Of a DNA stretch of 64,000 nucleotides, positions 4,033 to 60,446 are shown piece after piece. The stretch is from Archaeoglobus sp. GTDB lineage: Archaea; Halobacteriota; Archaeoglobi; Archaeoglobales; Archaeoglobaceae. The position numbers and the translations under genes are program-made. Each line of letters starts with the position of its first letter. Within the stretch, counting starts at the first letter, position 1. Location of the stretch: assembly GCF_017656475.1 (NCBI RefSeq), contig NZ_JACDNT010000005.1, positions 1 through 64,000 of the forward strand, given 5' to 3'. Below the pieces are notes generated by a model. It saw nothing but the letters and a program-made list of their open reading frames with translations, was not told where the DNA came from and ran no database searches.

Positions 4033-5117
4033 AGCCTTATAAACTTCTCGAAAGGTGTGAGGACTTCACAATCTTTTTCTCTCACAACAACAGTATCTTC
4101 AACTCTTACACCTCCAATTTTGGAGTAGTACAGCCCAGGCTCAACGGTAACCACCATCCCCTTCTTCAGCTCAACGCTAAGCTCACTAATCCTCGGCTCT
4201 TCGTGCACTTCAAGTCCTATTCCGTGCCCCGTGGAGTGTATGAACCCTTCTCCTTTCTCTGTCTTGAAACCGTAGTTGTTGAGCACGTCCTTCACCAGCT
4301 GGTGAACATCTCTCGCATCAACCCCGTTTTTTATCATCCCAATCGCCTTTTCCTGCGCATCAACCACAGCTTTGTACATCTCCTCAAGCTCGACATTTTT
4401 CCTCAAAAAAATCGTTCTCGTAAAGTCGGAGTAGTAAAGATGCTCAATGCTCTTCGGAAAGACATCGAGAACTACGTGATCCTTTATATCCCCCTTTCCA
4501 ATCTCGTGGGGGTCGGAGGAGGCTTTTCCCGATGATGCTATTGTATTCTCCGCCAAATACCCCTCAGAAAACAGCTTAACCTCAACCGCTCTCCTCAACT
4601 CCTCGCAGGTTTTAAAGTTGAAGTTCTCCACTGCCCATTTAACACATCTAAGGATTGCGTTGCTCGTGTCCCTTATTTTCTCAATTTCAGAAGAGCTTTT
4701 AATAACTCTCAGCTTTGTGAAAGGGTTCTTTACGACCTCAGCCTGGAAGTGCTTCATTAGCTCAAAGGAGATATAAGTTGGCAGCTCTTCCGGGAGAAGG
4801 AGCTTCCTGCATCTCCCTTCCTTCAAAACCGACACCAGAATGTCCAGATACGCCTTCTTTGCGTCTTTCGTCTCCTTCAGTTTATCCATGTATCCGAGGT
4901 CGTTGAGCGAAACAACTTCCTTAACTCTGCTCTCCCTCTCCGCCCTCCTCTTTTCCATTTCAGGGACAATAAGGATGTCAGAACCGTCAATACCTGCGAT
5001 ATACGTTAGGGGGTCGTATGTTTTGAATTTCGTCACGTAGTAGAAGTTCGCGTCGTTGCTTGAACCATGGAGAATTATGAAGTCAGCATCGTGCTCTCTG
5101 AGAAATTTGGCAATCAT
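4026..5117 (-). CDS. pepQ: Xaa-Pro dipeptidase / M24 aminopeptidase
   Basis: 363 aa; M24 motifs STGHGIGLEVHEEPRIS and VTVEPGLYY. Confidence 0.9.
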   Translation of the reverse strand: MIAKFLREHDADFIILHGSSNDANFYYVTKFKTYDPLTYIAGIDGSDILIVPEMEKRRAERESRVKEVVSLNDLGYMDKLKETKDAKKAYLDILVSVLKEGRCRKLLLPEELPTYISFELMKHFQAEVVKNPFTKLRVIKSSSEIEKIRDTSNAILRCVKWAVENFNFKTCEELRRAVEVKLFSEGYLAENTIASSGKASSDPHEIGKGDIKDHVVLDVFPKSIEHLYYSDFTRTIFLRKNVELEEMYKAVVDAQEKAIGMIKNGVDARDVHQLVKDVLNNYGFKTEKGEGFIHSTGHGIGLEVHEEPRISELSVELKKGMVVTVEPGLYYSKIGGVRVEDTVVVREKDCEVLTPFEKFIRLY

Positions 5118-12707: not shown

Positions 12708-14729
12708 TTGCGATGTATTCAAAAACTCGAAAATTTTTTATATATGCTTATTACCATCACAAGCATGGCAGTTGAGAGATTTCGGAAAATAGGGCTCGTA
12801 GGGATAATAATTACACTCATAATAATAACCATTAACACTTCAGCGGCAGCACCACTGCAGGTTAACATAGAGGAGAAGATAGGGAGCACTGTTACACCAG
12901 ATGGCATAGAGAACAACGGCAACGTTCAGTTCAGCTACCAGACAAACGTAACGGGGTTCGTTAACATAACGAACAACGATCCGGATGATTATCTGTACGA
13001 TGTGTGGGTTGCAGTAGACATTCCGAATCTGAAGGGAGAATGCTCTTATGAGGGTTCAAGGACGGATGTTTCTGCAGGTTCTTCGCTTGCAGTTCCTGAC
13101 AAAATAAACAAACAGGGAGTTTTCAATACGAGTGGAGCTAACTGCTTTATCCACATACCGGTTTTAGCGCCCGGTGAAACTGTGAGTGTTTTCTACGATG
13201 TTAATGACAGTGAAGCAGGTCTCGCTGATGGAGCACCGTTTGTTGTGGAGGAGAGGTACGATCCGTTCAAGATTCCTTCGAGAGGGGAATTCACGTGGAC
13301 TGTGTATCTTAATGTTTCACCCAATATCACTTGGTTAGGTAATACACAACTACCAAACACAGCAACAGCATCTATGAAAATTGTCAAATATTTAAGCAAT
13401 GACACAATGCACTTCGGAAGCCAAAACTGGAAGACGCTGAAAGTTGTAGGTACACCCACAACAAACAACGGAAATGTTAATACATATTCAGGAAACTACA
13501 CAGGAGCGGCTGATAGTACAATTGTCTTTTCAAGAATCAGCCTTAATCTCAATAATCCCTCTAATTCAGTTAACACATCGTTCCAGGTCGAAGGAAACTA
13601 CACGAGCAATGACGCCTTCACCACTCGGTTTGAGCCGTTTGGCTTTGCGGTTTTCGAGTTCAGTATAAGCAGTGGAAACGTCAGTGGAGCAAAAGTTGTG
13701 GATGTTTTTGCATTCGGAAATGCCAGTATCGCAGTAAACAAGAGCGGTCCGGATGCAAACAACAACTGGATGGGCAATGCCACCATAACCAACACTGCAA
13801 GTGGGCTTACGTATGTTGTTACGAATGTCACTCTTTGGGCAACTCAGCAGGGAGACTTCTCAAATTATGTGCAGAATAACAACTTTAACAATTTGAACTG
13901 CAGCGGAGGAACAGCTCTAGACTCACCAAATGTAATATGTGGTTACGAGCCAAACCAGCAGCTTACAGAATCCACATCTTACACCACTGGAAATATGGAA
14001 TTCACATACGACCAAGTTCCCATAATCTGGGCAAACGCCACCTTTAAGCTGATAGAGGATGATACAAATGGATGGGGAACAGCAAGCAACACGGCTAATG
14101 CTGCAAACATTACATACGGCAGCGACTTTATAGTGATTGAGAAGATATACGTCATCGGAACATACCTCGTTAAGGTTACAAAGTATGTTCAGGCAAATGC
14201 AAGTGCTGGAGACAATGTATTCGATGTCTGGCTGGTTGTGGAAAACCTTGGAGGCGAGAGATCTCCGTATGTTTACGTTTACGATTTGATTCCTGAAAGA
14301 TTTAGCGAGTATAACTGGAACGACAATTGGACAGATGTGAGGCAAGACGGCAACTGGGTTAATAATTCAAGCATGTTTTCGGGAATCGGGAATGTCAATA
14401 ATCCAATGGGCGGATATACTAAAGGATACTGGTGGAGACTATACCCGCTTGAAGGAGGAGCCAATGGAGACGGAGATTACATGGATTACGATGAAATCGA
14501 CGCCAACCAGTCAGTGGTTATCTTCTACCAGGTGCAAGGGTCTGGAGACTTCAAAGTCCTCGATGCGTTCCTGGTCGGTATTGACCCAATGCTCTCCATG
14601 AACGAGCAGACCTCACCGAAGATAACCCTTGTAAGCGGTGCGAAGGCAACGAGCTATGAATCGGTGATGGCCCTCGCAACGGCCTTTGCTGGACTGGTTG
14701 CTATCGTTAGTTACAGAAAAAGAAGTTAA
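12708..14729 (+). CDS. secreted/surface protein with signal peptide and C-terminal TM anchor
   Basis: 673 aa; N-terminal hydrophobic segment, many NxS/T sequons, C-terminal TM then RKRS; true start possibly ATG at about 12765 (MAVERFRKIG). Confidence 0.8.
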   Translation: MRCIQKLENFLYMLITITSMAVERFRKIGLVGIIITLIIITINTSAAAPLQVNIEEKIGSTVTPDGIENNGNVQFSYQTNVTGFVNITNNDPDDYLYDVWVAVDIPNLKGECSYEGSRTDVSAGSSLAVPDKINKQGVFNTSGANCFIHIPVLAPGETVSVFYDVNDSEAGLADGAPFVVEERYDPFKIPSRGEFTWTVYLNVSPNITWLGNTQLPNTATASMKIVKYLSNDTMHFGSQNWKTLKVVGTPTTNNGNVNTYSGNYTGAADSTIVFSRISLNLNNPSNSVNTSFQVEGNYTSNDAFTTRFEPFGFAVFEFSISSGNVSGAKVVDVFAFGNASIAVNKSGPDANNNWMGNATITNTASGLTYVVTNVTLWATQQGDFSNYVQNNNFNNLNCSGGTALDSPNVICGYEPNQQLTESTSYTTGNMEFTYDQVPIIWANATFKLIEDDTNGWGTASNTANAANITYGSDFIVIEKIYVIGTYLVKVTKYVQANASAGDNVFDVWLVVENLGGERSPYVYVYDLIPERFSEYNWNDNWTDVRQDGNWVNNSSMFSGIGNVNNPMGGYTKGYWWRLYPLEGGANGDGDYMDYDEIDANQSVVIFYQVQGSGDFKVLDAFLVGIDPMLSMNEQTSPKITLVSGAKATSYESVMALATAFAGLVAIVSYRKRS

Positions 14730-29652: not shown

Positions 29653-30369
29653 ATGCGTATAAGGGTTGATCTGACACCCCCTGAGGGTGTGGCCAAGATT
29701 GACCTGAACTACTCTTATTATCTCGCATCCCTCATATATCGGGCGATAAGCTCTGTAGACAAGACCCTTTCTCTCGAACTCCACAGTCCTTACGGCCCCA
29801 AGCTTTTCACCTTCAGCAAGCTCTTTGCTGAAAACTACAAAATTGACGGAGAGTGGATGGTGATAAAGGGATCAGCCCACTTCTTCTTCTCCTCACCAAA
29901 GAACGAGATGTGCGAGAAGTTCGTCGAGGGGGTTCTGGCTAATCCAGAGGTGAGTGTTGGAGATGCGCAGTTTCTCGTCACGGGTGTTGAGGTTTTGAGA
30001 GAGAAGAAGATAGGAGAGAAAGAGAAGTTCGTCACCCTTAGCCCGATAACCGTCACAACAGTTGAACATCAGGGTTACTCCAGAAGGAGCGTCGACCTCT
30101 ACCCGTCAGATGCGAGATTCTATGAGATTCTGAGGAGAAATCTCGTGAAGAAGTACGTCGCCCTCCACGGTAGAGAGCCGGAAGATGCTGAGTTGAGGAT
30201 AAAGCCGATTTCTGTGAAGCCGAAGAGGCTGAGGATAAAGAACACGTTTCACCGCTGCTCCGAGATGGTTTTCGTAGCAGAGGGGAGCAAGGAGCTTCTT
30301 GATGTAGGATACAAGGCGGGGTTCGGGAGCAAGAACTCAATGGGCTTTGGGATGGTGAAGGTGGTATGA
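29653..30369 (+). CDS. cas6: CRISPR endoribonuclease Cas6
   Basis: 238 aa; two RAMP-like halves; C-terminal Gly-rich loop GYKAGFGSKNSMGFGMVKV; first gene of the cas operon. Confidence 0.9.
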   Translation: MRIRVDLTPPEGVAKIDLNYSYYLASLIYRAISSVDKTLSLELHSPYGPKLFTFSKLFAENYKIDGEWMVIKGSAHFFFSSPKNEMCEKFVEGVLANPEVSVGDAQFLVTGVEVLREKKIGEKEKFVTLSPITVTTVEHQGYSRRSVDLYPSDARFYEILRRNLVKKYVALHGREPEDAELRIKPISVKPKRLRIKNTFHRCSEMVFVAEGSKELLDVGYKAGFGSKNSMGFGMVKVV

Positions 30370-30914
30370 TGTGGGGTATGACACGAGATATTAGAATAAC
30401 CGAAAAGATCAAAACTATTAGATTTTTCTCACAATCTCACAAAGAATATGTAGCAAAAGTGCTGGAAAGGATTGTAGAGTTCTATGGCGACCAGCTTGTA
30501 TCTCTCGCTGTTTTTGGCTCCTATGCGAGAGCGGAAAATAGATTAAACTCAGATCTTGATATCTTGTTGATCTTAAAAACTAATAAACCAAGACACGAAA
30601 GGATTAGAGAATTTGTAGAGAACATTGAAATGCCATTGGAGTTTCTGGCCCATAGACTTATTGACGAGGGCATATTTATGGAGTTATCACCCATCATTTT
30701 GTCTGAAGAGGAGGCCAAATACTTCAATCCTGTTTATCTGGATATGGTTGAGCATTCAATTATCATTGTTGACAGAGGTGATTTCATTAGAAACATTTTG
30801 GAGAGAGTTCGCGAGCAAATGGGCAAGTGGGGGAGCTACAAGGAATTCGTAGGGGGCAGGTGGATGTGGGTTATAAAAAAGGGCGAGTTTGTGGGAGGTG
30901 AAAAGCTTGGATAG
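30366..30914 (+). CDS. MNT-type nucleotidyltransferase (antitoxin-like)
   Basis: 182 aa; SLAVFGSYARAENRLNSDLDILLIL (GSxxR...SDxD). Confidence 0.85.
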   Translation: MMWGMTRDIRITEKIKTIRFFSQSHKEYVAKVLERIVEFYGDQLVSLAVFGSYARAENRLNSDLDILLILKTNKPRHERIREFVENIEMPLEFLAHRLIDEGIFMELSPIILSEEEAKYFNPVYLDMVEHSIIIVDRGDFIRNILERVREQMGKWGSYKEFVGGRWMWVIKKGEFVGGEKLG

Positions 30915-31309
30915 GCTCTCTCAGGATTATTTAAAGAGGGCAAATATAAGACTGGAAGTTTTAGAGGTATTTTACAGCAAAGGTGATTATGCAGATGTGG
31001 TTAGAGAAGCCCAAGAAGTTGTAGAGCTAGTGCTGAAAGCCGTTTTGAGAAATGCTGGAATAGACGTCCCAAAAATACACGATGTGAGCAGGATTTTAGA
31101 GAAATATAAAGACCTGCTGCCAGAAGAGATAAGGAAAAATTTAAAGAGGATCGCTCAGATATCAAAAAGACTTAGGAAAGAGAGGGAGTTGAGCTTTTAC
31201 GGCGCTGAAGATTTCATACCGCTTGATGACTGCTGAAGAGGCTTTGCAGGCTATAGAAGATGCCAAATTTGTTGTTGATGTTGTGAGGAGGGCGTATGGT
31301 GGGTTGTAG
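30889..31309 (+). pseudogene. HEPN-domain protein (toxin partner of MNT) with C-terminal frameshift
   Basis: ORF 30889..31236 ends ...AEDFIPLDDC*; another frame continues TAEEALQAIEDAKFVVDVVRRAYGGL* to 31309. Confidence 0.7.
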
Positions 31310-31322
31310 AGGGGAAACCTGT

Positions 31323-32852
31323 ATGAACATTGAAATCAACGTATTTAACGACCCATGGATGGATAGCGGAGTTGAGAATTTTTACAGAATTCTTAGTGAA
31401 TTGGAATCATGCGAAGTAGAATTAACAAAAAACTCGATGGTACTCAGGATAAAAGATATACAGGAGTTCGTTAAAGAGCTGACAAGCATTGTGATTCACA
31501 AAAGGCAGAATTTAATCGTTATTGAAGAGGATAAAAAAACAAGGATTAAAAAAGAGGTTAAGAAAGATCATGTAATCATTCAGGAAGAGAAAAAGGTCGG
31601 CGGCAAGGTTGCTTTAAAAGAAGAAATTTATAAGCCTGAAAAAACAGCCGAGATTATTTCTAGTGTTTTTGATTTAAAGGAAGGAAAGAACACGTGCATT
31701 CTGTGCGGGAGGAAATACAATAAAAGTATTAAAAAACTCCAGCAGGCGAACTATCCATTTGTTACAAAGATAGCCAGTTTAAGTGGAGTAAGAAGTTATA
31801 AAGGAGATGGAGTTTTATCGCTTAAGGAATATTACGACAATCTATGTCCTCTCTGCTACTTTATAGGCATCCTTGAATGGACGGATGAGGCGCTGATTTA
31901 CAGAACGTTCCCAGGAGAGAAGTCATATCTATTTATGCCCTATTTCGACAATCTCAAAGACCTTCACGAGTTCAAAAAGCTTTGTATAAATGCAGGAATA
32001 TTGAATAATGCTGAAAGGTACTCCAATATTAAGGTAAATCCCAAAGCCCAAGATGTTGAAAACACTCCTGGAGAGTATTCGACGCTACTGTGTTTTTACG
32101 AAAAGTTTGTTGAGAACGCAACAGATGAAATAATTGCCAGTAACTGGGCTGTGTTGCACATACCATTTGGAGCGGTTAAGAACGTGAAAATAGATTTCCT
32201 GAACATCGATGAAGGCATTCTCGGAGTGATAAAAGAGCTAAAAGAGAGTGGAGAGTTGGAGAGAATTTATTCGGACCTTATGAGAAAGATGTATTTCTTC
32301 TCCCAAAACAAGAACACTACAGACTGGGATACTACGAGAGAGATTCAGGAAAATTTATCAAAATACTTTTTACTGGACGATTTTAGGAAGTTTACAAACA
32401 GTCTACTTCCAAGGAAAGGAGGTTATGTTTTCTTTTCTTCTGAGGTTAGACAAAATTTGGAGGAGTTAATTTTTGAATGGAGGTGGAAGAAAATGAGTGT
32501 TGAGAAGGATAAGCTTGATGCTGTTAGAAATGTAGGGAGAATCGTAGCAAAAATTTCAGAAAACAATGCATCACCTATATACAAACTGGACAAGGTAAGA
32601 ACTATTAATGAGTTCTGGAGCGTGCTCCGAGAGATCTCAAGGAAACTACCGAGTTTGAATGAAGAGAAACTTAAAAAGATAAAGCCAACGGCGCTGGATG
32701 AGGTAATTCAGCTCACTAAGGAAATCGTTGAGAGAAACAAAGATGGATGGAGAGAGGTAAGGGATTTAATCGTCGTTTACGCTTCAATGTACTACTCTCT
32801 GGACAAATTGGGGAAGAGATCAGAAGGAGGTGAAGGAGATGAGGGGTATTGA
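31323..32852 (+). CDS. cas8: Cas8-type large subunit (Cst1/Cas8b-like, CXXC...CXXC)
   Basis: Start at [27 protein letters not shown]...[19 protein letters not shown]; followed by cas7 and cas5. Confidence 0.8.
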
Positions 32853-33786
32853 GGTGGTCTGGTTGTCTCAAACAGACCTAACGAATCTAAACGCTGGGGA
32901 GGGAGAGGCAAACTTCATTGACATCAAGAAATACAAGAAAAATGGTGTAGAATATCCGTACGTTTCTGGACAGGCAATGAGATACTACTTCAAAGAAGCA
33001 ATCAGAAGAAATCTTGATGGAGAATATATGTGCGTTCCAAACGATAAAGGGGAGACTTGCGGAAACATCAAAGACTGTATCGGATGTGACCTCTTTGGCT
33101 TTATGACGACCATCAAAAAAGGAACCGTCATTCCGGGTTATCCACAAGGACATCCAGGCGGTGCAATGACAAGAGTGTCTCCGGTAAAGGTTTCTCCGGC
33201 TATGGGATTGTTGCCCTTCGAAGAAAACGCTGTGGTGGATTTCCTGACAAGAAGGCACAGGATGGAAAAAGGAGAGATGAGGGGGGATATCGTTAACGTG
33301 GAGATCGGAGTTAATTTGTACAAATGCGGCATCGCGATAGATGTTGCAAGGGTTGGAGGGGAAGAAAAAGTCAATGAGAAAACAAGAAGCGTAGAAATAG
33401 AATACTATGCAGATACAGACACAAGGAAAAAGAGAGTATCCAAGGTCATTGAGGTGCTTCGATATCTTTCAGACTATTCAAAGCAGGCAAGATTGCTTAC
33501 GGATTTCACACCAGACGTAATTCTAATAGCTTTCCAAGATGTATATTCGCACAGACTTCAGAAGGCGCTCGCTCTAAACAATGGTGGGCTTGATTTAGAG
33601 AGGCTCGAAGCAGTTATCAACGATGTTAAGGAATATAGCCCGAAAATTATCGCTGGAATTTTGCCTGGTGTTGTTGAGAACGAGAATAAAGTAAGAAATA
33701 AGCTTGAAGAGCTTGGTGTCAAAGTGAAGAGTACCAACGAGGCGATAAAAGAAGCTCTGAATTACCTTAACAAGCAAGAGCTGTGA
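32830..33786 (+). CDS. cas7: Cas7 (DevR/Cst2 family)
   Basis: 318 aa; [58 protein letters not shown]. Confidence 0.9.
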
Positions 33787-34448
33787 TTACTATGCCACTG
33801 CTCGGGTTGAAGTTCAGAATCGACTGCCCGTATTTTGCCACATTTAGAGAACCGACATCAACATCCCTTATTTTAACTTATGTTATCCCACCTTACACAA
33901 CAATTAGAGGTGTGATCTCGAACGCTCTTGGATTGTCTAGGGATGATTTGAGGGTTCAGAACTGGTTTAAGATCGGGATAAAATCGCTGAGATTTGAGAA
34001 GAGCAGGGAGATGGCAAAGATTCTGAAGCTGAAGGGGACCGGCAGGAAATACGAAAGAACTTTTCCGTCATCACCGATGTTCAGAGAGTTTCTGGTTGAG
34101 CCCAGTTACGAGGTGTATCTGGTCGGAGATGAAGATAAAATCAGGAAAACGTATTTAGCTCTTTTAAATCCGGCAAGACCCCTCTATCTTGGAGGTTCGG
34201 ATGATCTCGTAGATTTAGATGTTTTTGAGCCAGTAGAAGTGGAGGAGACAGAAACAAAGGAACTATGGAGCGTTGTTGGTGGTGTCCATGAGGGTTGCGT
34301 GGTGGAAAAAGTTCCGTATAAATTCGTGAAAGTCGGGAGAAGGTTTGATGTGGTGTATAAGACGGTGTCGATTCCCGTACAAAGCCCCGTTAGAGGAATC
34401 TTCAAAACTATGAGTTTTGGAGAAGGAGAAAGCGTATGGATGACTTGA
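33783..34448 (+). CDS. cas5: Cas5
   Basis: 221 aa; [45 protein letters not shown]. Confidence 0.9.
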
Positions 34449-35181
34449 TTCCCACTAGTATAGATGATTTTGTTGAGGATTTCTTGAAAAATGCTCTTGA
34501 AGTAGATGTTTTGGACTATCAAAAAGTAGAATCAGGCGGAGAAGGATATACAGTCATTTATGTCTGTAATTTGAATTTTGATCAAATTGAAGTTTTACAA
34601 AGCGTAGGATTTGAACAGATTAAAGATGATTTGTGGATTTTTAATGGTTTTGAAATAGAAATCGACAAATTAAAAGATACACCTGTCATAAAATATTTTG
34701 AAAACTTACAAAGAGAAGAATGGACTAAGTTGATAAACTTAAGGTGCGAAGTTGATCATAATTTTTATGGAAAGATCAAAAAACTATATTTCGAAGTACA
34801 CATAACACTCCAAAAATCGCCTTAAAATGGTATGGTAAGTTAGCATTAGACGAATCAACGTTTAATGATTTTATCGTTGATCTGAATAAACTACTAGTAG
34901 AGTCTGTACCTAGAAAGATTGGAGAAATTTGTGGTTCCGACTTTTTAAGGGGTGTGAGATATGTTAGAAATACAAGAATTGCTCACGACTCGAGCGAAAT
35001 CAAACAATTAAGAGCCGCGGAAGAATATCTTAACAATTTAGTTGGTGCCAGCTATCTTAGATATTGGTACCATTACGTAAAAGCTCAAATTTGCATTATC
35101 CAAGACGGAATAGATTTTTTAAATGAGATCAAATCTAAGGAAGGTGAGATCGTTGAAATTCTTACCAATAGCCAAACTTGA
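34436..35181 (+). pseudogene. unknown cas-operon protein, predicted HEPN-like C-terminal domain, interrupted by one frameshift
   Basis: ORF 34436..34825 and ORF 34954..35181 join through a frame reading ...HITLQKIALKWYGKLALDESTFNDFIVDLNKLLVESVPRKIGEICGSDFLRGVRYVRNTRIAHDSSEIKQLRAAEEYLNNLV... if one A is added to the A5 run at 34812..34816. Confidence 0.65.
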
Positions 35182-37528
35182 AATCAACAAAAACGGAGAA
35201 AAATACTTTCAGACACTGGAAGGTCATACGGTAGACGCACTCAAAATACTGAAGATATACATTAAAAGAAATCGTGAAATAGTAGATCAGTTCTGTGAAA
35301 GATGGAAACTAAATAAAGAAAAATTTCTAAGAAATCTTTTTCTGACTGTTTATCTGCACGACATCGGCAAATTAACCAAGGAGTTCCAGCAAAACATAAG
35401 GCAGAACAGAAGATCGCAAAGGTATCCTCACGCATACTATGGATTCTTTCTGCTCCACGATTCCTTTACCGACACGATTATTGATGTCCCTATAGAACTT
35501 GCCCCTATTTTAGGGCATCATACGCAGCTTTACGACAATCTTTACTCAGATTATAACCAATTCGAAAAACCAACTTTTCTGGAAGAGGAGATCAGAAAGT
35601 TTGTATCAGATGCAGCAAGAATATACAAAGAACTGGGTTTTGATGAATTTTTCAAATTCGACGGCTTCACTCTTAATGACATCCCGAAATTTAGCTGGAA
35701 TGGTATCGAGAAAGCTCGGAAGAGGTTTGTCAGGAAAATAAATATGTACGTGAAGGAAAATAAAGATTGGGAGCGAGTGAAGTCAGTGTTCTCATACATC
35801 TTTGCAATACTCCAGACATGCGATGATTACGCAAGTGTTGGCTTCAGAAAATTCGTTGAGAATGGCAAGGAAAAGGGAGGCGTTTTTGGCGCGGTTCTTA
35901 AAGACGAGGATGCAGGTGAATATGTTCCTGTACTGCAAATAGATGACCCTGTAAAAGCGGTTCTTGGAGACAGAGAGCCCTATGAATTCCAGAAAAAGGT
36001 AATGAGCTCGGGAAAGTTCGTAACTTTATTTGCACCGTGCGGGAGAGGTAAAACCGAAGCGGCACTTCTATGGGCTCTCAATATTCTCAAGAAGCATAAA
36101 AGAAACAAGATTATCTTTGCGATGCCAACTCAAACTACAAGCAATGCAATGTATGATCGTTTTATTCACGATTTCAAATTTGGAAAAGAAAATGTTGGAC
36201 TTTATCATGGAAGAAGTTTTATTAAACTAAGAGATGAGCTTAAAAAGGAAAAAGAAGAAGAATTTGATGAGGAAAAAGATGCGGAAGAGCTCAGAAGCGA
36301 GACTTTTAAGGGGAATATTTTCTTCAAGCCAGTAACCATCACAACTGTAGACCATCTGATTTACTCATTCGTTAAGGGCTTCAGCCAAGCAGATTTTGCT
36401 TTTGGCAACTTACAAAACGCAGTTATCATTTTTGATGAAGTACACTACTACGAAAAGTACACTCTGGAGCACTTACTCGCTCTCTTCAAACTCCTGAGAA
36501 AAATGGACATTCCACACTTGGTAATGTCGGGAACACTTCCAGAATTTATGCTCAAAAAACTTCATGATTATGAACATGTAGTCGACTGGGAAGGATTGAA
36601 ATTCCAGCCGTTTAAAATTGAACTGGATGGAGAGACAATATTTGATAGTGAGGTATTGGAAGAAATTGCAGAAAATTATCGAAAAGGGTTAACGCAATTT
36701 GTGATTCTGAATACTGTAGAGCGGGCTAAGGATCTCTACAAGAAATTAAAGGAGAAGCTAAAGGAGTCCTTTAACCAGCCGAATATTATGCTTTATCACT
36801 CTCAGTTTACGTATGATGACAGAATAAAAAAGGAGAACGAGATTTATCAAAGAATTAAGCAAAAACCTTTCGTTCTTGTTGCTACGCAAGTTATAGAAAT
36901 CTCACTTGACATTTCATGCGATGTTATGCATTCAGAGCTTGCTCCACCCGACGCTCTTGGCCAAAGGGCAGGAAGACTCAACAGAAAGGGAAAATTCTGG
37001 AAGAATGAAGTGGAACACAAACTGAAAATTTACATACCAGAAAATCACCTACCATACGATGAAAAATTAATCAACAAATCTAGAGAGATTATTGTGAATT
37101 ACCAGAAGCCAGTGAGTTATAAAGAAATAAAAGAGCTGTGTGACCTTGCTTATGCAGAATATGAGCTCGGAAAAAGCGACCTCCTTATATTTTTCAAAAA
37201 ATGCGCTGTGTTCGGTGAGCACTGGAGAAAGGTTGCAACTGAAAGCGAAGAAGGATTGAGATTTAAAGTTAGAGAAGAGAATGTTCAGTATGTAGACGTT
37301 ATTCCGGAATGTATTTTTGAAGAGAGTAGAGATAATGCCTTGAGAGTTCAAAATACGGCTAAAATACCACTTTACTATTTACTAGAGGATTTAAACTCTG
37401 GTGGTGGAGCCTTCTATCTCTATGAGACGCCGGAAAGGAAAAGAGCGTTCTGGATTTGCAGATACCCGTACAGCTATGAAATAGGGTTTGATTATGGTGT
37501 AAAAACTGATAATCTGAATATACTTTGA
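35144..37528 (+). CDS. cas3: Cas3 HD nuclease-helicase
   Basis: HD motifs LEGHTVDA, YLHDIGKL, HAYYGF, LGHHTQLYD; Walker A FAPCGRGKTEAALL; DEVH box IIFDEVHYYE; start chosen at GTG following GGTGA. Confidence 0.93.
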   Translation: MRSLKFLPIAKLEINKNGEKYFQTLEGHTVDALKILKIYIKRNREIVDQFCERWKLNKEKFLRNLFLTVYLHDIGKLTKEFQQNIRQNRRSQRYPHAYYGFFLLHDSFTDTIIDVPIELAPILGHHTQLYDNLYSDYNQFEKPTFLEEEIRKFVSDAARIYKELGFDEFFKFDGFTLNDIPKFSWNGIEKARKRFVRKINMYVKENKDWERVKSVFSYIFAILQTCDDYASVGFRKFVENGKEKGGVFGAVLKDEDAGEYVPVLQIDDPVKAVLGDREPYEFQKKVMSSGKFVTLFAPCGRGKTEAALLWALNILKKHKRNKIIFAMPTQTTSNAMYDRFIHDFKFGKENVGLYHGRSFIKLRDELKKEKEEEFDEEKDAEELRSETFKGNIFFKPVTITTVDHLIYSFVKGFSQADFAFGNLQNAVIIFDEVHYYEKYTLEHLLALFKLLRKMDIPHLVMSGTLPEFMLKKLHDYEHVVDWEGLKFQPFKIELDGETIFDSEVLEEIAENYRKGLTQFVILNTVERAKDLYKKLKEKLKESFNQPNIMLYHSQFTYDDRIKKENEIYQRIKQKPFVLVATQVIEISLDISCDVMHSELAPPDALGQRAGRLNRKGKFWKNEVEHKLKIYIPENHLPYDEKLINKSREIIVNYQKPVSYKEIKELCDLAYAEYELGKSDLLIFFKKCAVFGEHWRKVATESEEGLRFKVREENVQYVDVIPECIFEESRDNALRVQNTAKIPLYYLLEDLNSGGGAFYLYETPERKRAFWICRYPYSYEIGFDYGVKTDNLNIL

Positions 37529-37530
37529 CG

Positions 37531-37554
37531 GGCATCAACCACGATCTTTTCCAT
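37531..37554 (-). pseudogene. 5' remnant of a vapC-like PIN toxin gene (MEKIVVDA), truncated
   Basis: ATG overlapping the end of the vapB-like ORF encodes MEKIVVDA and then loses PIN-like sequence at the cas3 3' end. Confidence 0.6.
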
Positions 37555-37687
37555 ATCTACCCTCTCTAAACTCTCTTACTATCTCCTCAGCTTTAACCTC
37601 ACCTCTACTCTTCTTTCTCACTATCTCTCTTTTATGAGTGTCGCTTTCGCTCTTAAAGCTTGAAATCTCATCGCTCTCGGACATCAT
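37535..37687 (-). CDS. VapB-like antitoxin
   Basis: Short ORF MMSESDEISSFKSESDTHKREIVRKKSRGEVKAEEIVREFREGRYGKDRG*, overlapping a PIN-gene start. Confidence 0.55.
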   Translation of the reverse strand: MMSESDEISSFKSESDTHKREIVRKKSRGEVKAEEIVREFREGRYGKDRG

Positions 37688-37695
37688 TTGCCCCC

Positions 37696-38117
37696 TCACC
37701 TCTTTGGCCTCATTATCTTCTCCAGCTTTTTACACCTCTCAATCGCTCTAATCTTTTCTTCAAGGGTTTCGTGATAGCTGATCCTGTGTTTCACGTTATC
37801 CCAAATCTTTCTCCAGTAGTAGAAGTATTCGGAAATCTCAAGCTCATCTCCAAACAGAACAATATAGTCATCCATAACCGAGGCCTTTACCTTGATGGGC
37901 AGCAGCTCAAATACTCTCAGATCATATGGGGTCTGGTAAGAACGAACAGTTTCTTCTGAATTTCCACATTTTTCTTCCTATCTCTGATCCTCGTAATCAC
38001 TGCAACATCAATATCTGATCCCTCTCTGAACTCTCCGGTAACGTACGAGCCGAAAATAACAGCTTCAAAATCTGAAATTGCTCTGAGATCCTCTCTTACC
38101 TTCTCAAGGCAGGACAT
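37696..38117 (-). pseudogene. MNT nucleotidyltransferase antitoxin with frameshift
   Basis: ORF 37917..38117 (AVIFGSYVTGEFREGSDIDVAVITR...LTRPHMI*); alternate frame continues PYDLRVFELLPIKVKASVMDDYIVLFGDELEISEYFYYWRKIWDNVKHRISYHETLEEKIRAIERCKKLEKIMRPKR*. Confidence 0.8.
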
Positions 38118-38490
38118 TCTCCACCCTCTTTACGAATTCTACCAGAATTTCTTTCACCTCTTCTACTGAACTTAGAACGAGCTGTTTGTCCACTTTGTTG
38201 TATCTGTGAACCAGCCAGTTTCTCAGCCCGTTGCACATTTTGAGCTTCTCGGTCAGTCTCTTATCAATCACTCCAATCTCGTGCAGTATCTCTATATTTT
38301 GTGTAGTCATCCTCAACCCCTTTTTCCAAGATCTTTAACAAGCATTGCGGAAATATCCATGGCTGATTCTATTGCCGTTAGGAGGTTGTAGAAGGTTCCG
38401 CTGATCTCTATTGGTTTTTCAGGGTTTTGTGGAATCTCATTCAAAGCTTCGATGATGTACCCGATTTTTTCTTGTACTGTTCTTTGTTTT
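38104..38490 (-). pseudogene. HepT-like (DUF86) HEPN toxin with two frameshifts
   Basis: Three frames concatenate: ...EKIGYIIEALNEIPQNPEKPIEISGTFYNLLTAIESAMDISAMLVKDLGKR / VEDDYT / NIEILHEIGVIDKRLTEKLKMCNGLRNWLVHRYNKVDKQLVLSSVEEVKEILVEFVKRVENVLP; RNxxVH motif. Confidence 0.8.
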
Positions 38491-38531
38491 GTTTGTTTTA
38501 TATTTTACTGTATTTGAAGTTTGGGCATTGC

Positions 38532-38795
38532 TCAGATTATTTCATCCATGCTGCTCTTCTCCATCCCCAAAACTTCTCTCTTCATCGCGTCAGCACTCCT
38601 AAGCCTGTAAATAACAACCATGTCCTCCTCCTCGTTTATAATCTCCCTCAGCCCCATCTTGACTTCCTCAAGGTCGGCCTGCGTGAGCTCGCCCTCAAAC
38701 AACGAATTCTGAATCCAGTTCAGGTGCTTCCTGAGAAACTTCTTTACCTTATTCACTCTATCAACATTGACATCGTAGGCGATTATCACATACAT
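38532..38795 (-). CDS. cas2: CRISPR-associated Cas2
   Basis: 87 aa; MYVIIAYDVNVDRVNKVKKFLRKHLNWIQNSLFEGELT. Confidence 0.95.
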   Translation of the reverse strand: MYVIIAYDVNVDRVNKVKKFLRKHLNWIQNSLFEGELTQADLEEVKMGLREIINEEEDMVVIYRLRSADAMKREVLGMEKSSMDEII

Positions 38796-38796
38796 A

Positions 38797-39765
38797 CTAC
38801 CACCACATCACGAAAGGTTTGTATTTCTCGGCATTCAAGATGTGCTTAACGAGCTTGTAGCACTCCAGCCTTATCAACCGCTGATAGGAGACTTTTCTGC
38901 CAAGCGTTCTGTGCTTTATGGTCCTCTCAAGCCTATCGTTGAAAGCCTTTAGAAATTTCTTTTTTCCGCTCTCACTCAGAAGAACGCCCCTGAACTCTTC
39001 ATCAAAATCCCCTTCACCGACCATTTTCTTGTTGACGAGAGAGATGACAAGTCTGTCCACGAGTAGAGGCTTAAAAATCTCCGCAATGTCAAGCGAGAGG
39101 CTGAACCTCCTCTCAGAAGGTTCGTGAAGATAGCTAATTGCCGGATGGAGCTGGGTGTGGTAGATTTCTGTCAGGACTGCAGAGTACAGAAGAGAATTTC
39201 CGAAGCTGATCATGGCGTTAACCTCGTTCTCCGGCGGCTGCCTGCTCCTCCTCTCGAACTTCATTCCGGTCAGAATGTTATCGAACTTTGAGTAGTATTC
39301 CGTCCTTGCTGCAGCCTCAATTCCCATCACCTCCTCTACGCTCTCTGCCTCTCCAAGTCCTTGAAGAGCTGAAATCACTCCTGCATCATCCTCCCCACTC
39401 CTCCTCAGCACACGTGCCATGTTCATTATACTGCCCTCAACGAACGCCTTTGCCAAATATAGCCTCTTCTCCCTGTCAAGGTAGTGCTCCGCCTGCCTCA
39501 CCACCACTTCACCCGAAATTAGACTCTCTCTGGGGTAAAACGAGCCGGTATAGTAGCCGTGTCTGTTGAAGAAGTGCACGCATACACCCTCCTTAGCCAG
39601 ATAGTTTAAAGCTTGAGAGGTTACGGTAAGCGAGCCGAGAGCGTATATGGCGTATATTGAGCTTATCGGAATCGGTCTCCTCTCTTCAGTACTCTCAAAG
39701 TATATCGTGTTCTCCTTTCTTCTTAGTTTTCCGTCAGAAACTATATAGAAGTTCTTCTTCCTCAT
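38797..39765 (-). CDS. cas1: CRISPR-associated Cas1
   Basis: 322 aa; [89 protein letters not shown]. Confidence 0.97.
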
Positions 39766-39769
39766 TCTA

Positions 39770-40276
39770 TCACCCTACAAAGCAGAATTCAAAATAGGCG
39801 CACTTCCTGCAGTGCTTTTTCCTTACAGGCTTAGGCATCTCCTTGTTTTTCTTCAACTCATCGATTTCTTCCAGAATTTTCTCCAAATCTCTTAGCTTCT
39901 CCTCGTCCAGCTCGACGTTCAAGACTTCCTTACTCTTTGGATACGTAATTCTCCCCTTAGCAGATATCCCGAGATTTGAAAGGTAAAAGAGGTAGTAGAG
40001 CATCTGAAAAACATCTGCCTTCTCCATTGATTTTGCCTTCTTCACTTCCTGAATCTCAAGCTCATTTCCCTTCCTAACAACATCTATTGCTATTGGCCCA
40101 ATCCGGACATCCTTTCTGTCCCTCTGGTAAAATTCCTTATGGACGAGCTTTCCAAGCTTTACTAGATCGCTTTCCCTCTCCAAATTCACGTTGTGGCTGA
40201 AAAGCCACAGTTTGGTTTTGCACACGAAATAGTAGTTAACCTCCACTCCTCTGATATACATTTCATCAATCATCAC
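39770..40276 (-). CDS. cas4: CRISPR-associated Cas4 (RecB-like)
   Basis: 168 aa; CxxC cluster [13 protein letters not shown] and adjacency to cas1. Confidence 0.92.
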
Positions 40277-40664
40277 AAAATTAATCTGTGCTGTACAATA
40301 AATAGCTTACCACTAATACTTTTGGCTGTTAAAGGGTGCTTAGAAAAGGTTTAATTCTAGAAAACAAGTGTCTGAGCCGGTCGCAAAATGATTTATTTCT
40401 GAATTTTATTGTATACATTTTTAGTTTTTATTTCCTTTGCTTTGAAAATGAGGTGGTCTGAGTTTTATTGTTATGCTTACCCATGCTGATTTAACTCTAA
40501 TTTCGCTAAAGAGTGGTTTGGTCATCCCAAATTGAAATAGGTCTTCAGAATAAAAATCGCACATCATTATAAACAACCTGCAACTTTAAAGATACGCGAT
40601 TGTATATAAACTAAAGGAGGAACAAGAAACCTTTAAATTAGAAATGGAGAAAATATTACTGATT
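40277..40664 (+). promoter_or_regulatory. putative CRISPR leader
   Basis: AT-rich non-coding segment between the cas4 start and the first repeat; the opposite array end carries a truncated repeat. Confidence 0.75.
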
Positions 40665-43600
40665 GTTGAAATCAGACCAAGATGGGATTGAAAGCGGTTG
40701 ATACAGCATACTCGGCGGATGATAGAGCACCAGTTGAAATCAGACCAAGATGGGATTGAAAGCTTTATAACGAAGAAAATACAACAGAAGCACAAGCTTG
40801 TTGAAATCAGACCAAGATGGGATTGAAAGTCATCTCTCCTAAGGAAATCAAGTCTTATCTCAATGACGTTGAAATCAGACCAAGATGGGATTGAAAGTTG
40901 ATCAGGTCTGTCGTCGAAGGCACTGACACTACAGTGTTGAAATCAGACCAAGATGGGATTGAAAGTTGACAAAAGAGCAAAAGATGGTGGCAAAGGCTAT
41001 AGTTGAAATCAGACCAAGATGGGATTGAAAGTTCTTTGCATCACTATGAATCCCTAAATACGAAGCTACTATATGTTGAAATCAGACCAAGATGGGATTG
41101 AAAGTTTATCCACGTAGCACTGTTTATTGTCCCGTTGTTCCCGTATCCAGTTGAAATCAGACCAAGATGGGATTGAAAGTAGGTCTTATAGCCCTCACCC
41201 TCCAAAGCCCGGTATGATTTCCGCTACACTACGTTGAAATCAGACCAAGATGGGATTGAAAGTTCCAAGCACCATTCGATGCAAACGTGTCTCCGACGGT
41301 TGAAATCAGACCAAGATGGGATTGAAAGATTAACGGTCTAAAAGTATCTAACAAACTACGCAATACGTTGAAATCAGACCAAGATGGGATTGAAAGGAGT
41401 CTAATTCTATTTTTTAGAGGTGTGAGGGATGGGTTGAAATCAGACCAAGATGGGATTGAAAGTTGCGGGGCTGATTGTGCCACTCTCACCTTCAAGGTTG
41501 AGTTGAAATCAGACCAAGATGGGATTGAAAGTAATTCAAAGTCATCTGTCATTTAAGCCCCTCCTTTGTTGAAATCAGACCAAGATGGGATTGAAAGGAC
41601 GACGTTTACGGACATGGCACAGAGTGCACGTCAGTTGAAATCAGACCAAGATGGGATTGAAAGGAGCGTCAGATTGGCATCATCGGCTAAAGGTGGAGTG
41701 TTGAAATCAGACCAAGATGGGATTGAAAGTCGCCTGAATCTCCTCAAGAGTTACGTACATTTCCAAGTTGAAATCAGACCAAGATGGGATTGAAAGTACC
41801 CTCTCGCTGATCTGTTCGGACTCGAGCTCGGGTTGAAATCAGACCAAGATGGGATTGAAAGGATACTCGCAAAAATCGCATTCCTCTGAGCCGCAGGTTG
41901 AAATCAGACCAAGATGGGATTGAAAGGACAATCAGGCTATCTCATGGGGAGACCCACTTTGGTTGAAATCAGACCAAGATGGGATTGAAAGGTCTAAAGT
42001 TAGAGTTATTTCTCTATCATCACTCAAAACAGTTGAAATCAGACCAAGATGGGATTGAAAGAAGCTCCTCCCGTATCGGTAAGGAGCAGGGCAACGTGTT
42101 GAAATCAGACCAAGATGGGATTGAAAGAGTGCCTGCAAAGCTACAAGTAGTGGTGCAATAAAGTTGAAATCAGACCAAGATGGGATTGAAAGAGCTTTTG
42201 AAGAGGTCGTAAATCTCACCCATAGAGCGTTGAAATCAGACCAAGATGGGATTGAAAGCAGAAACTGGTTCTAGCTCAGGTGCAAGAGGTGAACATGTTG
42301 AAATCAGACCAAGATGGGATTGAAAGGAGTTTTAAGCCACTCGTTTAAGCTCATTACGGTGTTGCATGTTGAAATCAGACCAAGATGGGATTGAAAGAGT
42401 TTACGGCATGATGGACATTGTATACCCGTTAATTGTTGAAATCAGACCAAGATGGGATTGAAAGAGAAGATAGTGTACGTGGTGTATGGGTCGAAAAACG
42501 GTTGAAATCAGACCAAGATGGGATTGAAAGAAAGAAACTTCTCGACCATTAGTGTTTTCCTAACTTCGTTGAAATCAGACCAAGATGGGATTGAAAGCAA
42601 GGATGAACGCAATTTCATGCTCGGCAGGCCAAGCGGTTGAAATCAGACCAAGATGGGATTGAAAGCCTTGATCAAGTGGATGAAGTCTTTGGGTTGATCA
42701 TAGGTTGAAATCAGACCAAGATGGGATTGAAAGGTGATTCTGATACTCATCGTTGTAGGGTTCGTCACGGGACTCTTTGGTTGAAATCAGACCAAGATGG
42801 GATTGAAAGGTTGTAGAGAAGTATAACATCCAAGAGCCGATCTTTGCAACCAAGTTGAAATCAGACCAAGATGGGATTGAAAGCCAAATACAAGAAAATC
42901 GCTCTTGCCGCCCTTCTCATCGTTGAAATCAGACCAAGATGGGATTGAAAGGTTGTAGAGAAGTATAACATCCAAGAGCCGATCTTTGCAACCAAGTTGA
43001 AATCAGACCAAGATGGGATTGAAAGCCAAATACAAGAAAATCGCTCTTGCCGCCCTTCTCATCGTTGAAATCAGACCAAGATGGGATTGAAAGAGTTAAC
43101 TTTATCTGGCTTCATATCTCCGCTTATTTGCGTTGAAATCAGACCAAGATGGGATTGAAAGACAAACTTGATTCCATATTTTTGCGCATAGTATTCACGT
43201 CTATGTTGAAATCAGACCAAGATGGGATTGAAAGGCTCTTCTCTGTTCACATCTGGTTGCGGAGCTAACCGTTGAAATCAGACCAAGATGGGATTGAAAG
43301 GACGTGCTTGTTGAACCAGTCGTATTCAGAGGCTCCGAGTTGAAATCAGACCAAGATGGGATTGAAAGCGAGCCGAGGCTCCAGAACTCCTCGCTGATAT
43401 CTTCGTTGAAATCAGACCAAGATGGGATTGAAAGTCCGTCCGCGTCGACTTCATCCTCTTCGGCTTCCTGCTGTTGAAATCAGACCAAGATGGGATTGAA
43501 AGTTTTTATCAACTAGAGCTAATATCCTTACTTACAGCTATAGCTAGTTGAAATCAGACCAAGATGGGATTGAAAGACTTCAAGGAGCTTCAACTGGATG

Positions 43601-46211
43601 TTGTCCCATATCTCGTCAAGGGTTGAAATCAGACCAAGATGGGATTGAAAGGCCGTCTCGCCGATTTTATTGCTTTGTATTTCTTTCCGTTGAAATCAGA
43701 CCAAGATGGGATTGAAAGGATTAGAGACATTGACAAGGGAGAGGGGCTTTACGCAGTTGAAATCAGACCAAGATGGGATTGAAAGAGGTTATCAAGGTGC
43801 TTCTCAATGCGTGGAGCTTTAGTTGAAATCAGACCAAGATGGGATTGAAAGGGAGAAAATGGCCACTACCGTTACTCCAAACATTGCAAGCGTTGAAATC
43901 AGACCAAGATGGGATTGAAAGCGAGTTGAGGGGGACGTACTTCCTCTTCACCCTGTGTTGAAATCAGACCAAGATGGGATTGAAAGTCAGCACCTCGAGG
44001 CGGAGCTCTTCGACCTTGCTGGCGTTGAAATCAGACCAAGATGGGATTGAAAGGGAGGTATCCGGAAATAAAGGAGAGCCCAGTAGTGAGGGTTGAAATC
44101 AGACCAAGATGGGATTGAAAGTGGATTCAATCGGCGATAAAGAGGCCAGGAAGAGTCCGGTTGAAATCAGACCAAGATGGGATTGAAAGCGCTCGTTGCA
44201 CCGTATATTTGCCCGTCGTTGCCGTGTTGAAATCAGACCAAGATGGGATTGAAAGGAGGTTGTAGAGAAAATGATGGCTGAGGATCTTGAAAGTTGAAAT
44301 CAGACCAAGATGGGATTGAAAGAAAGTAATCCACAGTCATCTGTGCTATTGTGTCCGAGTTGAAATCAGACCAAGATGGGATTGAAAGAGGGTAAATCCC
44401 TCCCACCGGTCGTTAAGGTGCTTGAGAGTTGAAATCAGACCAAGATGGGATTGAAAGCTCATCAAGTTCTCTCGGTTCAATTGAATAGATCTTTGTTGAA
44501 ATCAGACCAAGATGGGATTGAAAGGCATGCATATCCTGTATCTGCATGCGATAGCTGCGTGGTTGAAATCAGACCAAGATGGGATTGAAAGGAGTATTCC
44601 TGACAGGCACTTTTCTGCTTCTGGCGATTGTTGAAATCAGACCAAGATGGGATTGAAAGGTTGAGATCAAAGCCTGTCAGGAGTGGCACAGGAATGGGTT
44701 GAAATCAGACCAAGATGGGATTGAAAGGTGCAAGTCCGGCGGGGAGCAAAAGCGAAAGTTAGGAGTTGAAATCAGACCAAGATGGGATTGAAAGTACCGA
44801 TACGGGAGGAGCTTCGGAAATCAAAAACTGTTGAAATCAGACCAAGATGGGATTGAAAGGAGAGTACGAAAAAGTAAGCAGGGAGTACAAAGTAAAAGTT
44901 GAAATCAGACCAAGATGGGATTGAAAGGAAGAGCTCCTTTCCATTTTCGAGGAGGAGTGAGAGGGTTGAAATCAGACCAAGATGGGATTGAAAGATGTCT
45001 GTGTTTCTCTACATACTTGTCCGCTACAACGTTGAAATCAGACCAAGATGGGATTGAAAGCTCGACGCTGCCTCGCAACCTGTCAATTTCTGCCGTTATC
45101 TTGTTGAAATCAGACCAAGATGGGATTGAAAGATGCTTCACGTTCTTCAGTATCGTCTTCCTAAGGATCACCGTTGAAATCAGACCAAGATGGGATTGAA
45201 AGGGGTCAGCATACTTCATACTCTGGATCAACACCGGTTGAAATCAGACCAAGATGGGATTGAAAGCAACTTCTTTGCGGTCCTCCTCGTCCAAAACATA
45301 AGAGTTGAAATCAGACCAAGATGGGATTGAAAGACAACCCCTCCACCAACACCCAAGGAATTGTTGCAGGGTTTGTTGAAATCAGACCAAGATGGGATTG
45401 AAAGAGTAGTGTTTGGAGCAAAGTAAAAGGATACTTCTTCTACCTTGACAGTTGAAATCAGACCAAGATGGGATTGAAAGAAAGAATGTGTGGTCAGCCC
45501 GTAAGGGCTGATGCTGTGTGTTGAAATCAGACCAAGATGGGATTGAAAGGAAAGAACTCGACAGAGCAATAGTCCGCCTCAAGCAGGTTGAAATCAGACC
45601 AAGATGGGATTGAAAGGTTTGTTCATTATCTCGTAAAATCTATCATAAGACATGTTGAAATCAGACCAAGATGGGATTGAAAGATTTTATTAAGTATGCC
45701 CTCCCAGAGCTGCCCATCAAGTTGAAATCAGACCAAGATGGGATTGAAAGCCGGCTTACCGTCAATGTGCCCGTCAACGAGCCCGTTACGTTGAAATCAG
45801 ACCAAGATGGGATTGAAAGTCAAATCTCCAAACTGGCTTATGAAGTCAACCGGGCTGTTGAAATCAGACCAAGATGGGATTGAAAGAAATAACGCACTAT
45901 CCTTAATTTTCCGATCCCCTCTGCAGTTGAAATCAGACCAAGATGGGATTGAAAGCGAGGTAGGCGCAGCGCTGGCAGTTTTGCGGGTCTCTAGTTGAAA
46001 TCAGACCAAGATGGGATTGAAAGGGAATACAGCTATCTATGCAGTTATTGGCTCATGATAGTTGAAATCAGACCAAGATGGGATTGAAAGGACCTCTCTT
46101 ATAATCCCAATCTTGTGCCATTCGAGATCGTTGAAATCAGACCAAGATGGGATTGAAAGATTGTCTTTTTGTGTCGTCTGAAGAAATATTTGTTTTTGTT
46201 GAAATCAGACC
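40665..46211 (+). CRISPR. CRISPR array; repeat GTTGAAATCAGACCAAGATGGGATTGAAAG (30 nt); about 81 full repeats by hand count plus a truncated terminal repeat
   Basis: Regular 30-nt repeats from 40665..40694 to 46130..46159; spacers mostly 34-46 nt, one of 53 nt; truncated repeat GTTGAAATCAGACC at 46198..46211. Confidence 0.99.
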
Positions 46212-55645: not shown

Positions 55646-57136
<1,491 letters not shown>

Positions 57137-57187
57137 AAAGGTGCATTCCAGCCTTCGCCTGCCGGGCTCATATGCTGGCAAGCCCAT

Positions 57188-57259
57188 GGGCTCGTAGCTC
57201 AGCGGGAGAGCGCCGCCTTCGCGAGGCGGAGGCCGCGGGTTCAAATCCCGCCGAGTCCA
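57188..57259 (+). tRNA. tRNA-Ala (anticodon read as CGC) in the 16S-23S spacer
   Basis: Acceptor GGGCTCG/CGAGTCC plus A; anticodon arm CCGCC-TTCGCGA-GGCGG; T arm CGGGTTCAAATCCCG. Confidence 0.93.
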
Positions 57260-57323
57260 TTATTGCGTGCACCCGGCGATGAAAGTCGTCGGGGAAGGGT
57301 TGATGGGCAAACTTGCCCAGGTG

Positions 57324-57368
57324 AAGCCGTGCAGAGGTTCGTCCCCAAATGCAATCTGGGACCGGCTC
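57324..57368 (+). other. 23S processing-stem 5' strand, pairs with 60305..60349
   Basis: AAGCCGTGCAGAGGTTCGTCCCCAAATGCAATCTGGGACCGGCTC largely complementary to GAGCCGGTCTCAGGCATAGATTGGGGATGAGCCTTTGCATGGCTT. Confidence 0.8.
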
Positions 57369-60304
<2,936 letters not shown>

Positions 60305-60446
60305 GAGCCGGTCTCAGGCATAGATTGGGGATGAGCCTTTGCATGGCTTTGTCAACTACTTTTTAGTATTGCTTTTGCAACTCTATTGTAAACTCTGAGA
60401 CTCTAATAATAGAAAATTTTTTAAACAACAAAACTTTTTCAGTGCT

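Follow-up and report, generated by a model that had tools for sequence, protein, structure and literature searches.

In type III and type VI systems, it is well established that CRISPR immunity is coupled to dormancy driven by RNases; for type I, the case for such coupling consists mostly of hypotheses, with the CreTA RNA toxins in addition. There, a testable protein example would come from a HEPN protein fixed in the cas5–cas3 junction.

CRISPR-linked HEPN proteins have been reported as CARF-HEPN families, and a suicidal RNase role has been proposed for Csm6/Csx1 (PMC3710099, PMC12669027). A motif of the RNxxIAH type is the catalytic motif of the HEPN superfamily, and bacterial AbiU2 is listed together with Sel1-repeat genes and R-M operons (PMC3710099). 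Toxins near cas genes have also been described in general terms (PMC3506569, PMC3936711). In the open-access literature, we came across no account that places a HEPN gene at the cas5–cas3 junction of a type I-B operon.

A type I-B locus with a gene between cas5 and cas3

The window, by which is meant the whole 64,000-nt stretch analysed, belongs to an Archaeoglobaceae genome bin (MAG), and carries archaeal rRNAs at 55646–60306 and a complete type I-B CRISPR locus at 29653–46159, comprising cas8b, cas7, cas5, cas3, cas1b, cas4, cas6 and an array. On the + strand, cas6 is followed by an MNT-HEPN pair, cas8b, cas7, cas5, a gene here named X, and cas3; after cas3, a HepT-MntA-like pair, cas2, cas1 and cas4 lie on the opposite strand.

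The intact cas6 (29653–30369), assigned by profile match and comparison with relatives, is followed by the intact nucleotidyltransferase gene MNT1 (30366–30914), which was assigned by profile match and has an ortholog in locus L036. The adjoining HEPN1 (PF05168; 30889–31297) has its C-terminal tail in another frame, the ORF ending at 31236. Next come cas8b (PADLOC PDLC01594; 31296–32852), cas7 (Cst2/DevR; 32830–33786) and type I-B cas5 (33783–34448), all intact, then X (34436–35181) and an intact cas3 (35153–37528), whose start is placed by homology at TTG 35153, rather than ATG 35123. X therefore overlaps cas5 by 13 nt and cas3 by 29 nt, and overlaps of the same lengths recur in the related genomes G244 and G127. 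Early termination of X in the window leaves ~300 nt before cas3 untranslated, which might lower Cas3 synthesis.

On the − strand, the MntA-like antitoxin partner (37708–38117) and the HepT-like HEPN gene (PF01934; 38110–38471) are both frame-disrupted, and are followed by intact copies of cas2 (38532–38795; assigned by comparison with relatives), type I-B cas1 (38797–39765) and cas4 (39770–40276). The array (40665–46159, + strand) contains 81 near-perfect repeats of GTTGAAATCAGACCAAGATGGGATTGAAAG; within it, an exact 142-bp tandem duplication of two repeat-spacer units at 42780–43063 leaves 78 of the 80 spacers unique.

One gene, its frame break and its relatives

In the window, X is read as two ORFs in different frames, 34436–34825 (129 aa) and 34954–35181, the second frame being open from 34762. 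When the read-through protein was searched against 394 genomes of the phylum, uninterrupted homologs were found in G244 (249 aa, 68% identity), G313 (240 aa) and G127 (235 aa), each a single ORF filling the same slot between cas5 and cas3. This bears out the earlier note, which had joined the two ORFs into one gene between cas5 and cas3 split by a one-base (net) frameshift, and had named intact homologs in related genomes as a check. It had also placed the break at the A5 run at 34812–34816; the run is real, but homology sets the switch ~30 bases upstream, in an A-rich stretch at 34774–34783 (+ strand). Residues 1–116 of the G244 protein map to 34436–34783 in one frame and residues 115–249 to 34774–35178 in the other, DNA alignment agrees with a switch inside 34774–34783, and the second frame already encodes FRSTHNTPK (FRTTHNTPK in the homologs) upstream of the A5 run.

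Compared with G244, the part of X 3' of the break has a dN of 0.14 and a dS of 1.87 (dN/dS ~0.075), indicating purifying selection, and the part upstream of it a dN/dS of ~0.21. As both halves are still conserved, the frameshift is either recent or an error/artefact. Of the two alternatives offered for the gene, frame-regulated or recently silenced, the second is the better one; the first is not supported, relatives having a single open frame.

All six copies of X that were found, including that of the window, sit between cas5 and cas3. The G092 copy is shortened by an in-frame 63-nt deletion, and the G288 copy is broken by a TAG stop and a frame change, the latter at a T run. Only 4 of 55 Archaeoglobaceae genomes carry X, and its nearest named relative is that of Archaeoglobaceae archaeon AUK153. 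Among eight loci of the cas8b clade with a readable cas5–cas3 junction, X is intact in three, damaged in three, reduced to a 5' remnant in one and absent from one. The remnant, MGRLSTAQFDEFIENFLK in G229, begins inside the end of cas5, with the cas genes intact; at the G137 cas5–cas3 junction, no X was found. X is thus missing from some loci of the clade and damaged in others, as expected of the auxiliary, non-core component that it had been taken for. A separate candidate identity, a Cas11-type small subunit, was rejected, as cas8b is still full-length in loci that lack X.

These searches covered one archaeal phylum together with viral, phage and plasmid sets, and the resulting alignment is shallow. 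A scan of genome contigs with short exact peptide patterns of X recovered the G244 contig only, and no relative was detected in viral contigs, in phage and plasmid records, or in searches of PHROGs, NCBIfam and PDB sequences.

Two of the related loci show changes of their own among the cas genes. At 4658–4694 of L012 (G313), the reading frame of cas7 changes where the sequence is rich in purines; X is intact in that genome. At 13785–14248 of L015 (G288), the start of cas4 runs straight into the final third of cas1, the two apparently joined by a deletion; adaptation has probably been lost in G288, and the interference genes remain.

A HEPN-like C-terminal domain

The C-terminal domain of X (34783–35178) is encoded in the second frame, with its first helix encoded upstream of the break, and contains the motif RNTRIAHDSS (R-x5-H) at 34963–34992, identified by comparison of the X copies (both + strand). 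RNxxIAHDSS is invariant in five copies (the window, G244, G313, G127 and G092), and its R179 and H185 give the Rx4-6H arrangement of HEPN sites. G288 has RHGYSHD in its place, with the arrangement retained as RHGYSH. The R and H rank among the best-conserved residues of X.

Profile searches point in the same direction at lower strength. The full-length G127 protein matches Pfam HEPN_AbiU2 with E=4.8e-5, and its C-terminal domain with E=1.6e-5, the latter scoring 24.9 bits where the cut-off is 26.8; X thus does not reach the gathering threshold of HEPN_AbiU2 (PF18734). Such matches are restricted to the G127 and G092 copies, the aligned region includes the motif, and G127 X is the top match of the profile over the 394 genomes. 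AlphaFold2 predicts an all-helical C-terminal domain, in which a helix ends at the motif, and an alpha-beta N-terminal domain of about 80 residues (34436–34675, + strand) arranged helix-strand-strand-helix-strand-strand, in part with low confidence; the models have pLDDT values of 73 and 58 from a shallow alignment, the C-domain-only model being the worse. Searched with both of these low- to medium-confidence models, Foldseek gave no match in the PDB, HEPN structures included, and a profile-profile comparison of X with the MNT-partner (PF05168-type) HEPN family gave no match. The N-terminal domain has no family match in Pfam, NCBIfam or PHROGs. The proposed HEPN identity is in part supported: the invariant motif, the sub-cut-off profile matches and the predicted helices favour it, and no match at the level of fold does. 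Taken together, we regard it as likely that the C-terminal domain is HEPN.

Weak PADLOC matches to different parts of X, PDC-M33C (0.0027, C-terminal half of the window copy) and PDC-M41A (8e-5, middle of the G244 copy), lead to uncharacterised candidates and were set aside. Distant proteins of 520–545 aa in G245 and G220 (L044 248–1810, L045 104–1741) share FxxxxNTxxxxLK...DFIxDLHxL with X, and have their own RNHYSH motif and a weak HEPN_Apea match; an hhalign probability of 54% is suggestive of a distantly X-like C-terminal domain in these proteins.

Frame damage, the possible role of X and known systems

Each gene of the window's locus was compared with its relatives for a match in a single frame or in two. 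Each of cas6, cas8, cas7, cas5, cas3, cas2, cas1 and cas4 is contained in one frame, whereas HEPN1, X, HepT and MntA each require two, MNT1 being intact. Frame disruption therefore affects 4 of 5 HEPN/MNT toxin-antitoxin-type genes and none of the 8 cas genes (Fisher p=0.007, a small count made post hoc); the earlier note was silent on the three further broken genes near X. Relatives are also damaged, in HEPN1 of G244 and HepT of G127, and G288 retains both its HepT-MntA and its MNT-HEPN pair. In G087, an MNT-HEPN pair with an intact HEPN frame (L036 6730–8017) stands beside a cas8 fragment only, and has outlived the Cas genes there.

We consider it about an even chance that X is an accessory HEPN-type RNase, a toxin-like effector, of the type I-B operon in Archaeoglobaceae and related archaea, costly and repeatedly inactivated. 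Its helical C-terminal domain would cut RNA as a dimer through the Rx4-6H site, and the ~80-residue N-terminal alpha/beta domain would hold the RNase in check or sense a signal. With translation tightly coupled to that of cas5 and cas3, X may serve as a dormancy or suicide back-up once Cascade-Cas3 immunity is engaged or fails. Its cost would lead to repeated inactivation across lineages, and in this genome a recent frameshift would have broken X, with HEPN1, HepT and MntA broken too and the Cas machinery left intact. Against a toxin-like RNase stand the HEPN_AbiU2 score, below the curated cut-off and confined to two genomes, the Foldseek result and the negative profile comparison with PF05168-type HEPN proteins. 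Against a costly toxin stands the breakage of the antitoxin gene MntA, a pattern for which general decay of accessory genes would also account.

Such decay, in which X and the toxin-antitoxin genes are weakly selected in some lineages and acquire lesions without toxicity or cost, is possible though on the unlikely side. It is favoured by the breakage of MntA alongside HepT, by the rarity of X in the family and by the damage to HEPN1 and HepT in relatives; however, three lineages keep X intact, and its remaining frames are strongly conserved, so that selection on X was active until recently. A little less likely is a HEPN-fold protein that is non-catalytic or regulatory, acting as an RNA-binding subunit of a Cascade variant or as a regulator of Cas3 through translational coupling, rather than as a toxin. 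The recurring overlaps with cas5 and cas3, the confinement of X to one cas8b clade and the intact cas genes of G229, which has lost X, are consistent with this, but the strong conservation of the HEPN-site R and H favours catalysis, and one would not expect a structural subunit to be absent (G229, G137) or broken (G000, G092, G288).

Two further explanations concern the frameshift itself. That a stretch rich in homopolymers was misread in sequencing or assembly, the strain's own X being intact, is improbable. In favour of such an error, the bin consists of 92 contigs, the break sits where A is frequent, some of the HepT breaks also lie at A runs, and dN/dS downstream of the break in X is low. 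Against it, the lesions of X differ in other genomes, and of 81 genes of this genome compared with G117, just 1 has a frame change. Given this background and the bias within the locus, sequencing error is unlikely to explain all four breaks. A programmed or phase-variable frameshift at the A run, toggling X on and off, could likewise draw on the position of the break and on the T run in G288, but is very improbable, since in G244, G313 and G127 a single frame stays open throughout X, and the G288 site lies elsewhere in X, with no conserved slippery site.

The presence in one locus of intact cas genes and frame-broken HEPN genes suggests that a suicide arm can be shed while immunity is kept, which bears on the hypothesis that immunity and suicide are coupled (PMC3506569).

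Returning to X as an accessory RNase, a broader proposal, more tentative and rather less likely than its opposite, is that it defines an as yet undescribed family of HEPN RNase effectors that lack CARF and form part of the type I-B operon. Such a family would have a new N-terminal sensor/inhibitor domain, equip a DNA-targeting CRISPR system with a dormancy arm that cuts RNA and needs no signalling by cyclic nucleotides, and be disarmed in some lineages by frameshift, along with the remaining HEPN toxins of the locus, the CRISPR system being kept. Several known systems come close. Of the abortive-infection HEPN_AbiU2 (PF18734), X matches 64 of 193 profile positions, including RNxxIAH, at a score below gathering; X differs in having its own N-terminal alpha/beta domain and in sitting in a CRISPR operon. 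With Csm6/Csx1, the type III CARF-HEPN ancillary RNases, it shares a HEPN-like C-terminal domain and the company of cas genes, but PADLOC and the other families gave no CARF or Csm6/Csx1 match, the N-terminal domain is only ~80 aa, and the X operon, being type I-B without Cas10, has no source of cyclic oligoadenylate. HepT-MntA and MNT-HEPN pairs would resemble X as HEPN toxins, and the window has two such pairs beside the very cas genes that accompany X; no MNT nucleotidyltransferase adjoins X, however, its neighbours being cas5 and cas3 in all copies. CreTA likewise ties a toxin to a type I CRISPR operon (PMC8501985, PMC10097628), but in that system the toxin, CreT, is a small RNA that Cascade represses together with CreA, whereas X is a protein gene that would be co-translated with cas5 and cas3.
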